Positions 8,194-63,743 of a DNA stretch of 64,000 nt are shown here, piece after piece. Both the position numbers and the translations under genes were made by a program. Origin of the DNA: a virus; IMG/VR virus record IMGVR_UViG_3300037725_000018, positions 62,001 through 126,000 of that record. One strand, given 5' to 3'. The notes below the pieces were generated by a model. That model saw only the letters and a list, made by a program, of their open reading frames with translations, did no database searches and was not told the origin of the DNA. Numbering within the stretch: position 1 is the stretch's first letter; the number at the start of each line of letters is the position of its first letter.

Positions 8194-8733
8194 TTATACA
8201 TATCCTGTCCACGGGTATGGGACCGGAACAGGTGCTCCGGTCGGTTGTGGGGTTAAGCTAATTGTCACTCCCGAAACAGTTTGAAAATGTGCCCGTATAG
8301 ACTGGATAAGTCCATCAATAAATATTTCTATTGATTCAGACTCTTGGGGAAGCGTATAGTTAAATGTTCCCGGAGACGTGACTTGATTGGACGTAACCTG
8401 AATGGAGGGGGGTGGAGGAACGGCAAACTCTAAAATAGCCCCGGTCCAATACGTAATCACCCCTGTTTGAAAAGCCGTTGAAATAGTTTGATATGCAGAC
8501 GCGGTTGTGTTTCCAAAGGCAGAGGAAAACGCTCCGGTAAGAGCGGTTTGAAGCCCTGCCGGGTTTGCTTGAACAACACCGTTTCCGTAAAGTTGATCTT
8601 GTCCACTTTTCACCAGAGAATCGTACCAACTTGTGATTTGGCGAGCCACTTGGGGAATCTGTGGGTCCGAATCAAGATTCCCTTCCAATATGTCCTTTAG
8701 GTCTTGCTCTTGAGACTGGAAATTTATTGGCAT
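8194..8733 (-). CDS. Probable virion structural protein
   Basis: 179 residues with a helical N-terminal half, a hydrophobic Gly/Ala/Thr-rich middle (about 70-105) and a Pro-rich C-terminus ending PVPYPWTGYV. I do not recognise the family precisely. Composition and place between baseplate genes suggest a structural role. It overlaps the sulfotransferase gene by 10 bases. Confidence 0.5.
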   Translation of the reverse strand: MPINFQSQEQDLKDILEGNLDSDPQIPQVARQITSWYDSLVKSGQDQLYGNGVVQANPAGLQTALTGAFSSAFGNTTASAYQTISTAFQTGVITYWTGAILEFAVPPPPSIQVTSNQVTSPGTFNYTLPQESESIEIFIDGLIQSIRAHFQTVSGVTISLTPQPTGAPVPVPYPWTGYV

Positions 8734-9338
8734 ACGTTTTGATTGAAGTATTGAATCTCTTCTTCGTAGTGTCTTTTAATCATTTCTTCTGTCTCGGGGC
8801 TGTAAGTGACCGAACTTCTATTTCTTACGTTCTTGTTGTTGTGTGGAAAAGAATCTGTGTTAGAAATGCCCGTCGCCTCTTTTAAGACTCTTTCCAAGTT
8901 TTCAAATCCGTTCTTTCCGTGCCAAATTACATGGTCTACATCTTCACATTTCTCTCCCATATAATAGAAAAACCCGATGCGTCTAGGAATAAATTGCATA
9001 CTGTAATCTCCGCTCATGTTTTCGGTGTTATACGATAAATACCAATCCACATATTCTTTAAACGAATGGTCCTTTGCAAAATTGTAACACTTAGGGAACC
9101 ATTTTCTTCCGTTTCTTTTTTGGCAGTATTTATACCCGGAGTGAAGCCAGTCTACATGATTTCTTGCAATTGAAAACTTTGTGTAATCCCGGTATTTTTG
9201 CTCAACCTCTTTGACCGGGGCGTGTTTGTGTTTATATTTCTCTGTTCCTACGGATTGGTTTAGGAAATTCCGAAGCGAAGTTCCTCCGGTGTGTGGAACA
9301 TGAATAAAAATAAACTTTTTTTCATGGTTGATTCTCAT
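8724..9338 (-). CDS. Sulfotransferase-family protein
   Basis: 204 residues. FIFIHVPHTGGTSLRNFL (about 9-26) is the 5'-phosphosulfate-binding loop of the Sulfotransfer_2 family (usual form HIPKTGGTSL). The segment SIARNHVDWLHSGYKY corresponds to the 3'-phosphate-binding Arg/Ser motif. Such enzymes move sulfate from PAPS to sugars or other acceptors. It lies inside the baseplate gene run, so it might modify host surface glycans or a virion component. The target is unknown, and His replaces the usual Lys of the loop. Confidence 0.65.
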   Translation of the reverse strand: MRINHEKKFIFIHVPHTGGTSLRNFLNQSVGTEKYKHKHAPVKEVEQKYRDYTKFSIARNHVDWLHSGYKYCQKRNGRKWFPKCYNFAKDHSFKEYVDWYLSYNTENMSGDYSMQFIPRRIGFFYYMGEKCEDVDHVIWHGKNGFENLERVLKEATGISNTDSFPHNNKNVRNRSSVTYSPETEEMIKRHYEEEIQYFNQNVCQ

Positions 9339-9358
9339 TGTTTTCTTTTGTCTTGTGA

Positions 9359-9829
9359 TTATTTAATATCTACAAAAACCGTTCCGCTTTCTCTTCGAAC
9401 ATTTGCTTGCGGAAACTGTCTTCGAATAAATGCAAGATACAGTTTTTCCCGTTGCGTAACCGCATCTAGTGGGGTACTATGGTCTTTAGGAATCGGCATG
9501 AATTGAAACCCTTTTATCTCGAAGCCTTCTTTTTTCATGAAATCTAAAGCGTCTAAAGCTATTTTAATCGTAGTTGAAACCACCTTAAACTGCTTTCCTT
9601 CATTTGTGACCCCACCACCTTTTTTCGTCGTAAAATCAACTTCAAGGTATTTTGATATAGGAGATTTGTACACATTAGCTACATACGACCTATTTTCGGT
9701 TTTAAATCTGTATCGGAGGGCGATTTGCGTTCCATCGCGCATTTCCCGAATGTTTTCACTTACTCTTCGAAATTTATAGTAATCGGTCGTGTCTCCTATC
9801 TCTCTAAGCAAATCGTTGAATCTAATCAT
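9359..9829 (-). CDS. MIRFNDLL-family protein, copy 2
   Basis: 156 residues. It starts MIRFNDLLREIGDTTDYYKF and shares with copy 3 the GDT start, a YRFKTEN strand, the VTNEGKQFKVVSTTIKIALD segment and a late LYLAFIRRQFPQANVRRESG. The two genes overlap by 4 bases (ATGA), a tandem duplication. The function is unknown. Confidence 0.6.
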   Translation of the reverse strand: MIRFNDLLREIGDTTDYYKFRRVSENIREMRDGTQIALRYRFKTENRSYVANVYKSPISKYLEVDFTTKKGGGVTNEGKQFKVVSTTIKIALDALDFMKKEGFEIKGFQFMPIPKDHSTPLDAVTQREKLYLAFIRRQFPQANVRRESGTVFVDIK

Positions 9830-27263: not shown

Positions 27264-27286
27264 ATGTTTCCGTGAGACCTGTTTAA

Positions 27287-27397
27287 CTAAAAACCCTTGC
27301 ACTCCCACAGGTCATGGGGGGACCAATTCGCCACGTTCGGTGACATAGCCGTATTCTTATCGACGGAAAGCGAAGATTTCGGCGTCGGGATTATCAC
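27287..27397 (-). CDS. Candidate small ORF (36 aa, GTG start)
   Basis: 36 codons from a GTG, with coding-like composition (TPKSSLSVDKNTAMSPNVAN). A TATATATAG box lies about 20 bases upstream. Size and start make it uncertain. Confidence 0.3.
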   Translation of the reverse strand: MIIPTPKSSLSVDKNTAMSPNVANWSPHDLWECKGF

Positions 27398-27419
27398 GTG
27401 TCTACCAATAATATATAGC

Positions 27420-29696: not shown

Positions 29697-29829
29697 GAAA
29701 AATAAAACAGACTGCAATTGATTTAGTGCTCTGCCAGTTGAGCTACCCGTCCAAAAGCGGACGGGGTAGGACTCGAACCTACAACCTCTCCTTCCATGTA
29801 GGATATCAATGGATTGCTGTATGCAGCCT
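29697..29829 (-). ncRNA. Permuted tRNA-like / Y-like RNA module A
   Basis: Order on the minus strand: AGGCTGCA, TACAGCAATCC bulge, ATTGAT, hairpin ATCCT-ACATGGA-AGGAG, T-arm GTAGG-TTCGAGT-CCTAC, acceptor CCCGTCC, GCTTTT, acceptor GGACGGG, TA, D-arm GCTC-AACTGGCA-GAGC, ATCAAT, TGCAGTCT, then GTTTTATTTTT. Acceptor strands pair perfectly in permuted order. AGGCTGCA/TGCAGTCT (8 bp) and ATTGAT/ATCAAT (6 bp) close the module around a 5'-strand bulge. A U-rich tail follows. This is the clearest of three related modules. Confidence 0.65.
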
Positions 29830-36187: not shown

Positions 36188-36192
36188 ATGTA

Positions 36193-36296
36193 AGACATAA
36201 AGCATTAGGATTCGAACCCTGTTTTTTAAGGCTTCGGCACCACATTTTACGGATTCGAACCGCGCCGGGTGCGACCATACCAACCACTTTATGTCT
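36193..36296 (-). ncRNA. tRNA-like RNA closed by a 10-bp stem
   Basis: AGACATAAAG and CTTTATGTCT pair over 10 bases and enclose two TTCGAAT loops (GCGG/CCGT and AGGG/CCT stems) and a GCACC/GGTGC stem. No reading gives a normal cloverleaf. A TATATATAG box is 20-30 bases upstream. Either a Y-like RNA or two fused tRNA fragments. Confidence 0.4.
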
Positions 36297-36380
36297 CAAC
36301 AAGTCATGTTGGTTTTTATATATAGGCTCTAACCGATAAAGTTTCAATCCGTTTGGTTATGAAATTTTTACCTGTATGTG

Positions 36381-36456: not shown

Positions 36457-36768
36457 AAGTGGACACGTGCTTTGAAATTATTGACAAGCGGTGTGCTTTT
36501 ACGCCAAATCGCGAGAGTATTAATCACAGGACGCCTTACCAGTTACGGGGTGCGCTCTCACTTCGTTGACAGCCATCTATTTTCACATACGCGGTCAACG
36601 GCGAACTCTTTAAAGGATGGATGCTTCTAATCCCACCTTCCGCTTTGTCAACAGTTTCAAAAGAACAACGCTTCTTTCTTATTTCCAATATGCTTTACTG
36701 CGTTTTATCAAGTTTGATCCGTAGTTTTTATGAAGAAACTGTTAATTATTATCAACTCAAGGCCATAT
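36457..36768 (-). other. 312-bp region without a gene, hairpin-rich
   Basis: I find no convincing ORF. Inverted repeats include GTTGAC/GTCAAC (36.56-36.62 kb), a CGAGAG/CTCTC pair enclosing ~50 bases, and several copies of TTGTCAAC-like words. A structured non-coding RNA is possible; this is inference from pairing by eye. Confidence 0.3.
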
Positions 36769-40336: not shown

Positions 40337-41812
40337 TTACACGCGAACCATGTCGTAACGATCATCCATGATCGTATTCAACGTAATTTGAATCGGGGTA
40401 ATGTTTTGGCCGGAAAGAATGTTCTTCATAATTGACGGGCTAAATCCGCTCACAAGAGCAGCTCCGCTTTCGGAAAACCGAACCGGATTATTCCCGCTAT
40501 CATCTAGGTTCCAAAACACAATGTTTGGGGCTTCGTATCCAGCTTTTTCGTACTTCTCCCGGACCATGTTCATCGCAGACACCGAACGCCCATCAATATT
40601 GTATGAATCAAACTGCATGTCGGACATAACAAGAATTGTTTCCGGCATTTGGTTTTCGGGTACGTTTCTGCTTTTTGCAAAGGAAAGCAAGCTTTCAAAC
40701 ATCGCAGAAATGTTTGTATTCATTCCCCAAGAAATTTCGTTTAGGCTTTCTACCCGATCTCGGAGATTTGAGCCTCCGATTTCAACGAAACTTGGGTTTT
40801 CGCTAAACGTCACAACCCGGTTTTGAAATGGTCCGGTGTTGTGCTCTGCCGTGTAAAGTCCAAGCCCGATAGCAACGTCAATCGGCCTTGTGGACGAGTT
40901 AGAGTTATAGGAAGCAGTCATGCTTCCGGACACGTCAACAACGGATAGAACATTATCTTCCATCCACACAGGAAGGTTCTTCCACTGCCCTTCAAGTTGC
41001 TTTAGCTCTTTGTCTCCGATAGAAGAGCCGCTTCCAAAAGCATTTCGGGATTGAAGAATGGGCTTGACAATTTCATGTGGAAAAATCGCCCCCGCACTCA
41101 TTTTTGTGTCTGTAGATTCGTCAAGCACGTCGTCTAGGTAAGCTTCAAAACGATCTTCGTCGTTTCGAACAAATGCATTCCGATACTTCCGGATTGCTTG
41201 AGATGGAACAGACTCGTAATCAATGCTATCCCAATTTTCTTCGCACATGTCCTGTTCAACTACGTCACGAAGACCGGACACAAGCTTTCTGTACCGCTTA
41301 GAGCGGTTTCCTACACTTCCACTATCAAACATGTGGTCACGGAGATCCGTAAACATGTCGTGGTCGGACTTGCCTTCAGACGGTGCCCACTTCGCCGCAA
41401 GACTGTCTCCGGACTCCAAGGCTTTTTCATAAAAATTCAAAGCGTCTTCATACACTTCGGTTCCCTTCGTTGAGTGAAGAACATCGTCCCAACGCCCGTA
41501 TTCGGGAATTAGATCAAGGTTTTTTCGGGCCGTTTCTGGATCGTTCTCTGCAAGCCACCGGAACATAATCCGAAACGTTCGCCGCTCTCCTTGTCCCCCG
41601 CGAATGTCGCGGTTATAGAAAAGTGACCGAAGAGCACCTTCCTTCGTTTCTTGATACGCCTTTCGAAAAAGGTCTTCGATGTATTCCGGGTCTTTTGAGC
41701 GAGACGCGCCCATAGAGAAGAAAAGATCCACAAGGTCTTTGCCGCTTGTGGAATGGGTCTTCATCCCATTTTCGGTCGTCTCGTCGTAAATTCCGGTTAG
41801 AATCTTGTTCAT
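40337..41812 (-). CDS. Ro60/TROVE-DUF2828-like protein with vWA domain
   Basis: 491 residues. TENGMKTHSTSGKDLVDLFF and YNRDIRGGQGERRTFRIMF followed by IPEYGRWDDVLH mark the helical-repeat domain shared by DUF2828 and TROVE-like proteins. The C-terminal half is a von Willebrand A domain with MIDAS motif DVSGSM (about 295) and a later MSDMQFD. Ro60 proteins ring-bind Y RNAs and misfolded RNAs such as 5S rRNA; a Ro homologue is known in mycobacteriophage Bxz1. RNA binding here is inferred from fold resemblance and from the Y-like RNAs nearby. Confidence 0.65.
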   Translation of the reverse strand: MNKILTGIYDETTENGMKTHSTSGKDLVDLFFSMGASRSKDPEYIEDLFRKAYQETKEGALRSLFYNRDIRGGQGERRTFRIMFRWLAENDPETARKNLDLIPEYGRWDDVLHSTKGTEVYEDALNFYEKALESGDSLAAKWAPSEGKSDHDMFTDLRDHMFDSGSVGNRSKRYRKLVSGLRDVVEQDMCEENWDSIDYESVPSQAIRKYRNAFVRNDEDRFEAYLDDVLDESTDTKMSAGAIFPHEIVKPILQSRNAFGSGSSIGDKELKQLEGQWKNLPVWMEDNVLSVVDVSGSMTASYNSNSSTRPIDVAIGLGLYTAEHNTGPFQNRVVTFSENPSFVEIGGSNLRDRVESLNEISWGMNTNISAMFESLLSFAKSRNVPENQMPETILVMSDMQFDSYNIDGRSVSAMNMVREKYEKAGYEAPNIVFWNLDDSGNNPVRFSESGAALVSGFSPSIMKNILSGQNITPIQITLNTIMDDRYDMVRV

Positions 41813-50809: not shown

Positions 50810-50896
50810 CGGAGAGCGGAGGCATCGAACCTCAAGATTTTTCAATCTCCATCTGATTTCGAATCAGCGATAGGTGCCAAACCTACGTCACTCTCC
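50810..50896 (-). tRNA. tRNA-Ser(CGA)
   Basis: 87 bases with long variable arm; acceptor GGAGAGT/GCTCTCC, anticodon stem CTGA/TCAG with loop TTCGAAA, T-loop TTCGATG, discriminator G. Confidence 0.88.
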
Positions 50897-50900
50897 ACAG

Positions 50901-57597: not shown

Positions 57598-57807
57598 TTA
57601 TGTCCAATTTTTTGCCTTTTTGTGTGCCTTTGTAATAAACATTTTTCGGGAACGTATCGAGCAATCTTCATAAACATACCGTTCAAGCCGACGATGTTGA
57701 CTGGCAAACTCTTCAACGTATGCTTTAAAGTCTTCCCGGCTTTTAGCACGGTTGGCTTTTGCCGCTTGAACCGCAACCATGTTTATTAGCTCTTCTCGGT
57801 CTGTCAT
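57598..57807 (-). CDS. Small basic protein of unknown function
   Basis: 69 residues, helical and basic (VAVQAAKANRAKSREDFKAY). It lies just before tRNA-Phe in sequence. Function unknown. Confidence 0.45.
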   Translation of the reverse strand: MTDREELINMVAVQAAKANRAKSREDFKAYVEEFASQHRRLERYVYEDCSIRSRKMFITKAHKKAKNWT

Positions 57808-57891
57808 TTTTTTTCGTGTGTTTCTCTTTGTTAACTCACTCTATAAAACCGCAATCTCGACATGTTGTTCCAAAATCAAATGTGAAGAAAT

Positions 57892-57926
57892 AAAAAAGCC
57901 CCGATCCGCGCCAAACGAACCGGGGC
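57892..57926 (-). terminator. Intrinsic terminator of the 5S-antisense-like RNA
   Basis: Minus strand: GCCCCG pairs with CGGGGC around a 17-base loop and is followed by TTTTTTA. No gene lies between it and the promoter-like box at 58079, so it should end a short non-coding transcript. Confidence 0.7.
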
Positions 57927-57927
57927 A

Positions 57928-58062
57928 AGCTGTCGCCTATGCAACGTAAGCCAACCAGTCATGGCACGAAGGTCACATTCCCATCCCGAACGCTTGAAAA
58001 GCGTGAGAAGCGGTAAAAACGCTGTTGAAATTTCTGGTTTTGAAAGGTCATGACAGTTAGCT
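57928..58062 (-). ncRNA. Non-coding RNA; opposite strand resembles 5S rRNA
   Basis: No ORF. On the plus strand GTCATGGCACGAAGGTCACA and then CCCATCCCGAAC (57980-57991) match the helix II-loop C region of bacterial 5S rRNA, where CCCATCCCGAAC is nearly invariant. AGCTGTC and GACAG-TT-AGCT pair to close a 135-base unit like helix I. The 3' domain does not match. The box TATATATTAACAC (58079-58091) and the terminator at 57892 are oriented for minus-strand transcription, which would give a 5S-antisense RNA. Confidence 0.45.
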
Positions 58063-58078
58063 GAATTTGCATAATGTG

Positions 58079-58091
58079 TTAATATATAGGT
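58079..58091 (-). promoter_or_regulatory. TATATATAG-box promoter candidate
   Basis: Plus-strand GTTAATATATAG, i.e. CTATATATTAAC on the minus strand. The same box precedes other starts, at 8177, 12178, 27407, 36317, 46600 and 57101, 20-68 bases upstream of each, and the related TATATATTAACAC precedes tRNA-fMet at 34264. It may be read by the gp55-like sigma factor. Confidence 0.4.
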
Positions 58092-58112
58092 CCAACGCCC
58101 GATTTTTTCAGT

Positions 58113-58361
58113 TTAATGAACGATCTCCCATTTGTATTCTCCAGAACAGGTCCTGCGTTTAAACGTTTTCAAAGAAAAACACGGAAGAGAAAGCCCAACC
58201 TTCTCGCAAGATTTTTTAATCCCGCTTCGAAACTTAGAAGGAACTGCTTTCCCGTTAACGTAATCCGGCTCTTTATGAAAGAAAAAACAGGTCCCGTCCT
58301 CGTCTACGCCAATGTATCTGTGCCAGCTTTCAATTTCTCTTTCAATTCCAAGTTCATTCAT
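58113..58361 (-). CDS. Small protein of unknown function
   Basis: 82 residues. YIGVDEDGTCFFFHKEPDYV then a C-terminal TFKRRTCSGEYKWEIVH, like the tails of homing-endonuclease-associated modules. Its last ~45 bases are 80% identical to DNA at 57151-57196. It overlaps the gene upstream by 4 bases. Confidence 0.5.
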   Translation of the reverse strand: MNELGIEREIESWHRYIGVDEDGTCFFFHKEPDYVNGKAVPSKFRSGIKKSCEKVGLSLPCFSLKTFKRRTCSGEYKWEIVH

Positions 58362-63280: not shown

Positions 63281-63329
63281 AGAATATAGACATTAATATT
63301 TGAATTGAAAACAGATAAAAATTTTATAG

Positions 63330-63743
63330 TGGACCCGGCGGGATTCGAACCCGCGTCCGCAGCACCTTTGCAACATCGGTTGTCACAGTCTTAGAATGGT
63401 CTTTATTTTTGACCGACAGACTATTGTATTAGACCACACAAAAGTTTGTGGGTTTTATTTCAACCCGCTATCGGACTTGTTTTACGTTCTGCCTACCAAG
63501 CAAAACAAGTTGAAGCCCAGTAGGAATATCCGATGGTGTGTGCCTTACTCTCTATCGGAGTCGAGAAGTAAGGCTGCAGTTACGCCGCAAGAGAAGCGCC
63601 GAAGTGCTCCTCCATGTTGACGCCTGCAGGAACGCGGTTAACGTTGCCAAGTATTGATTCCGTCAGTTATTTTATGCCCACCTAACGGTAAGGGCAGACT
63701 GCCGACCTTGCTCCGCGTGCTACGTCGAAGCCGTGTCAGGCCC
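63330..63743 (-). ncRNA. ssrA: tmRNA
   Basis: 414 bases. The ends fold as a tRNA-Ala-like domain: GGGCCTG/CGGGTCC with G3-U70, T-arm CGCGGG-TTCGAAT-CCCGC, and the typical GACACGGCTTCGACG 5' segment. A tag frame at 63580-63648 runs 22 codons from GGC to TAA and ends in EEHFGASLAA, the -LAA ending recognised by ClpXP in bacterial tags. CCA is not encoded. tmRNA with SmpB rescues stalled ribosomes. Confidence 0.9.

Follow-up and report, generated by a model that had tools for sequence, protein, structure and literature searches.

A probable orphan small RNA gene among the tRNA genes of a large phage, with a 5S rRNA-like stretch on its opposite strand

We conclude from the arrangement of promoter, terminator and predicted fold that a gap between two genes of a large phage probably holds an orphan, independently transcribed minus-strand small RNA of ~180 nt. 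The DNA analysed here (the window) is 64,000 nucleotides long and corresponds to bases 62001-126000 of an IMG/VR virus record of 223,357 bases. The features that bear on this reading and on its alternatives are as follows, in window coordinates:

58080-58089, minus strand: promoter box CTATATATTA, placed by genome-wide motif counts in the phage's own late-type promoter class
57892-58074, minus strand: inferred transcript of ~180 nt, its start estimated from the box and its end taken as the T-run of the terminator
58049-58074, minus strand: predicted 5′ arm of the end-closing helix (8 bp, a 4x4 internal loop, 14 bp)
58009-58023, minus strand: predicted small internal hairpin AGCG-UUUUUAC-CGCU
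57990-58004, minus strand: predicted small internal hairpin ACGCUU-UUC-AAGCGU
57937-57963, minus strand: predicted 3′ arm of the end-closing helix, with a single bulged U at 57957
57898-57926, minus strand: intrinsic terminator, a stem of 12 pairs with T6 behind it (to 57892)
57959-58072, minus strand: 37-codon open frame inside the small RNA, probably not translated
57957-57991, plus strand: stretch resembling bacterial 5S rRNA from loop A through loop C but lacking 4 nt, and thus complementary to 5S on the transcribed strand

Some 40 tRNA genes and a tmRNA lie in the window, along with genes for a Ro-like protein, a tRNA nucleotidyltransferase and baseplate proteins; almost all of these are on the minus strand. 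Surrounded by tRNA genes and small-protein genes, the small RNA locus occupies the gap between a minus-strand gene that stops at 58113, immediately ahead of the promoter box, and the next, which starts at 57807; no ORF of at least 60 aa was found in the 57807-58113 gap, and the protein of the upstream gene (58113-58361) has no relatives in IMG/VR. The closest known relative of the phage is the 484 kb uncultured phage LR756508.1, in which the RNA ligase is 63% identical and the baseplate and Ro-like proteins are ~51% identical. Other relatives recovered through the RNA ligase or the baseplate protein reach at most ~50% identity, with the exception of one short contig that encodes a baseplate protein identical to that of the phage. 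Past its RNA ligase gene, LR756508.1 (L004) has ~1 kb lacking clear ORFs (8500-9490), which may hold more noncoding RNA. The tmRNA of the window (63329-63743, minus strand) has an unusually long predicted tag, GNVNRVPAGVNMEEHFGASLAA. A tRNA-Sec-like RNA at 50810-50897 (minus strand), which maps just before tRNA-Cys and is absent from the ARAGORN list, scores 40.6 bits against a gathering score of 47 (E 1.2e-4).

In the whole 223,357-base genome, the motif CTATATATWW occurs at 19 minus-strand sites and 1 plus-strand site, and shuffled sequence contains a slightly wider form 0.05 times per window on average. On these counts the CTATATATTA box is not a chance word. Most CTATATATWW sites lie 23-73 nt upstream of ORFs and have A-rich leaders, and the promoter class of the box is common to late-type genes. 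Written as CTATATATAA/TTA, the phage promoter motif has 19 minus-strand sites in the record, a strand bias of 19:1, and A-rich leaders without Shine-Dalgarno words. The same class is found at 27418 and 36325, each followed by a tRNA-containing noncoding stretch. These two promoter-led stretches (27270-27418 and 36190-36325, both minus strand) have no convincing ORF and stand ahead of tRNA-Pro and tRNA-Glu, respectively, and the second contains two T-arm-like words, GGTTCGAATCC.

The terminator at 57898-57926 is among the strongest within the window, and by analogy with T4-type late promoters, transcription would start near 58074. The earlier note had read the box and the terminator as signs of minus-strand transcription, and the 19:1 strand bias of the promoter class and the strength of the terminator uphold that claim. 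These signals support minus-strand transcription that begins at a promoter and ends at a terminator both belonging to the locus, and the two elements by which an independent phage small RNA is recognized are both present.

Folding of the minus-strand RNA predicted a multiloop closed by a single long stem in which the two ends pair. The closing helix encloses ~137 nt, in agreement with the total of ~135 bases given in the earlier note. As many long-range pairs as in the terminal helix arose in 16 of 1000 shuffles, and by itself the predicted helix is modest evidence, being moderately unusual. The minus-strand fold has a z of -3.7 with the terminator included and -2.6 for the core alone, and the plus-strand fold of the core has a z of -1.8; the interior of the minus-strand RNA is no more stable than shuffles (z +0.65). 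Since a promoter, a terminator and paired ends occur together with no sizeable ORF, the locus would be a small noncoding RNA gene, presumably expressed.

Relatives of this RNA were sought in several collections. Rfam searches of both strands, at gathering thresholds and at E up to 10, gave no family at the locus, and BLASTN against phages and plasmids returned chance matches and Listeria 5S only. Neither nhmmer nor a single-sequence covariance model found a homologue in 30 whole relative records, in 57 loci that carry a GTPase-associated-centre-like RNA (see below) and are rich in phage tRNA genes, or in LR756508.1, the closest relative, for which filters were switched off; the phage's own genome holds no second copy. 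The absence of homologues in these searches, the shuffle-like stability of the interior and the 37-codon frame count against the small RNA reading.

We regard this small RNA as a real yet fairly ordinary phage RNA. Protection would come from the terminator stem and the terminal helix, and activity from a loop domain of ~85 nt, in which the two small hairpins are accompanied by a G-rich stretch, GGGAUGGGAAUGUGACC, that is predicted to be partly open. Its most likely mode of action would be trans-acting regulation during infection, in which the G-rich stretch may pair with a host or phage RNA or bind a protein. Like stand-alone phage small RNAs, the locus has its own promoter, its own intrinsic terminator, no convincing ORF and a position in a gap; unlike them, it has no sequence relative that we could find. 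Such an RNA would extend the noncoding repertoire by one well-delimited gene, complete with promoter, ends and terminator, in a large phage that already has about 40 tRNAs, a tmRNA and a Y RNA, beside a Ro-like protein.

The last two touch on an alternative reading. The Ro-like protein (40337-41812, minus strand) is a Ro60/TROVE-like RNA-binding protein with DUF2828 and DUF7788 (phrog_850) and has relatives in 682 GenBank phage records. Separately, an RNA at 29699-29822 (minus strand) with clear T-arm and D-arm mimics matches the bacterial Y RNA family YrlA (RF02553) at E 6.4e-8 in its own stretch, below the Rfam gathering score, and this YrlA-like RNA is the likely partner of the Ro-like protein. 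PMC12282133 discusses a Listeria phage with a Ro-like protein and putative Y RNAs. That the locus under study encodes a second Y-RNA-like partner of the protein, bound through the bulged end-closing helix, seems unlikely. Its 5′ and 3′ ends are indeed predicted to pair in a bulged helix, as in Y RNAs, and the Ro-like protein is encoded in the same window. However, the locus has no YrlA covariance-model match, a T or D arm (the tRNA-mimic module) is absent both by eye and by model, no helix sequence in common with the RNA at 29699-29822 was seen, and that separate gene can take the role. Because a real YrlA match lies elsewhere in the window, we demoted the Y-RNA hypothesis to a rival.

It is distinctly unlikely that the gap is a functionless spacer, made of the terminator of the upstream operon and a promoter remnant. 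The stop of the upstream gene just ahead of the box would suit such an arrangement, as would the lack of conservation in the relatives searched, but a promoter placed directly before its own terminator with no intervening gene suggests a purpose, and the paired ends fit the predicted transcript ends. We consider it very unlikely that the transcript is a small mRNA for a leaderless peptide of 37 aa. An ATG-to-TGA frame does span most of the RNA body; however, the ATG follows the box by 7 nt, as against the 23-73 nt A-rich leaders of most ORFs behind such boxes, the chance of a 37-codon frame is about one in six, and the peptide has no homologue.

The remaining alternatives arise from the likeness of the plus strand to 5S rRNA. 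The 5S words that the earlier note had pointed out were all found there (GTCATGGC at 57958-57965, GAAGGTCACA at 57968-57977 and CCCATCCCGAAC at 57980-57991), the last of these positions holding the conserved loop C word CCCAUNCCGAAC. Plus-strand bases 57957-57991 match Listeria 5S at 32 of 35 bases with one 4-nt gap, and Trichococcus and Aerococcus 5S are nearer, at 41 bits over the 31 bases 57961-57991, these Bacilli genes having been hand-picked with a pattern derived from the phage sequence itself. When 32 Bacillota 5S genes, of which 29 were unselected, were combined in a sequence profile, the locus scored 9.5 bits (E = 0.72 over 1.9 Mb of DNA from large phages; ~0.02 per 64-kb window). 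It is the best 5S-like place in that DNA. With an unselected panel of 29 Bacillota genes and six from other phyla, the locus scored 29 and the next tile of the window 27.

The Rfam 5S model (RF00001) matched neither strand at any threshold tried, with E as high as 10 in the case of one genome, in searches in which control genomes did give 5S matches. The three-way junction of 5S helices I, II-III and IV-V is absent from the predicted fold, in which the helix II word pairs with a distal arm instead. According to the earlier note, its 5S reading would fall if no 5S model score was obtained or if the similarity was limited to a short word, and this is largely how it turned out: the model score is nil, and Flavobacterium 5S shares only TTCCCATCCCGAAC, 14 bases. 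The 5S likeness is real as DNA letters, with a significance that is weak once the hand-picked panel is set aside. Since the locus was singled out from many windows, some such coincidence is expected, and the likeness on the opposite strand is probably one.

If the likeness were meaningful, the transcript might be antisense to the 5S rRNA of the host and pair through its GUUCGGGAUGGGAA / UGUGACC segment with the conserved region of loop C and helix III, a reading that we consider highly improbable. The consequence drawn from it, that ribosomal-protein binding would be blocked and 50S assembly disturbed or 5S marked for decay, is just as improbable. In its favor are the matches to Listeria, Trichococcus and Aerococcus 5S described above, a 14-nt core that is the complement of the best-conserved part of bacterial 5S, and the presence of another rRNA-like RNA in the same phage. 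The predicted duplex energy with Listeria 5S also went beyond that of 1000 of 1000 random window segments and 1000 of 1000 shuffles, but Listeria was chosen for its likeness, and since the energy follows from letter likeness it is not independent evidence. Against an antisense role, the duplex is broken by the 4-nt gap, the high score depends on the hand-picked Bacilli genes, and GCCAUGAC is predicted to be locked in the terminal helix. The exact phage word was absent among 84,980 genomes and the exact anti-5S word had no match in IMG/VR, where the 5S pattern with a gap of 0-8 occurred in no other viral contig.

The likely host also argues against pairing with a Bacilli-type 5S. A 4-base Shine-Dalgarno word precedes 2 of 37 phage starts, compared with 7% of random ATGs, and the missing Shine-Dalgarno sites make a Bacilli host unlikely. 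Bacteroidota largely do without Shine-Dalgarno sites, and their absence here points to a Bacteroidota-like host and not to Bacilli; it is with 5S of Flavobacterium that the shared stretch shrinks to 14 nt. The earlier note's proposal that the RNA is antisense to host 5S is unsupported, given this 14-base limit, the 4-nt gap, the selected Bacilli genes needed to reach 41 bits and the lack of the pattern in other viral contigs. We know of no earlier phage antisense RNA against a ribosomal RNA; if the reading were true, this RNA would be the first one aimed at rRNA.

The other proposal made earlier, a derived 5S-like RNA transcribed from the plus strand, can be dismissed almost entirely: the 5S words stand in the right order on that strand and resemble 5S over 35 nt, but the model search was negative, the helix junction and 4 nt are missing, the promoter class has no plus-strand box here and a single one genome-wide and so does not read the 5S-like strand, and the strong terminator serves the opposite strand.

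The other rRNA-like RNA of the phage lies at 36479-36653 on the minus strand and contains both conserved halves, GGAAGGTGGGATTAGAAGCATCCATCCTTTAAAGAGT and TTTGGCGTAAAAGCACAC, of the L11-binding GTPase-associated centre (GAC) of 23S rRNA. Read from 36653 to 36479, the halves are joined through a 102-nt insert and closed by the helix TTGACAA/TTGTCAA. It is even harder to credit that an antisense RNA to conserved 5S and this stand-alone copy of the GAC form an RNA set aimed at the host ribosome. The GAC-like RNA was matched by the Rfam archaeal LSU model, and no Rfam family besides LSU rRNA was found for it; a gathering-level Rfam search of 17 GAC loci named no family.

The GAC hairpin word is present in 57 IMG/VR contigs (L296-L352), of which only L342 has it in a 23S context; in the rest, every 23S mark tested is missing and the flanks are unrelated. 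Of the 37 non-redundant phage copies, 29 have the second half at most 330 nt downstream, after an insert of 64-315 nt, compared with 2 nt in the 23S copy, and most phage copies are closed by a flanking helix of at least 6 pairs whose sequence changes. Our literature search found no published report of a stand-alone phage GAC-like RNA. This widespread RNA matters more than the small RNA locus and is the stronger discovery; it is also present, unannotated, in cultured jumbo phages, for example Cronobacter GAP32, Pectobacterium CBB, Serratia BF and Xanthomonas XbC2.
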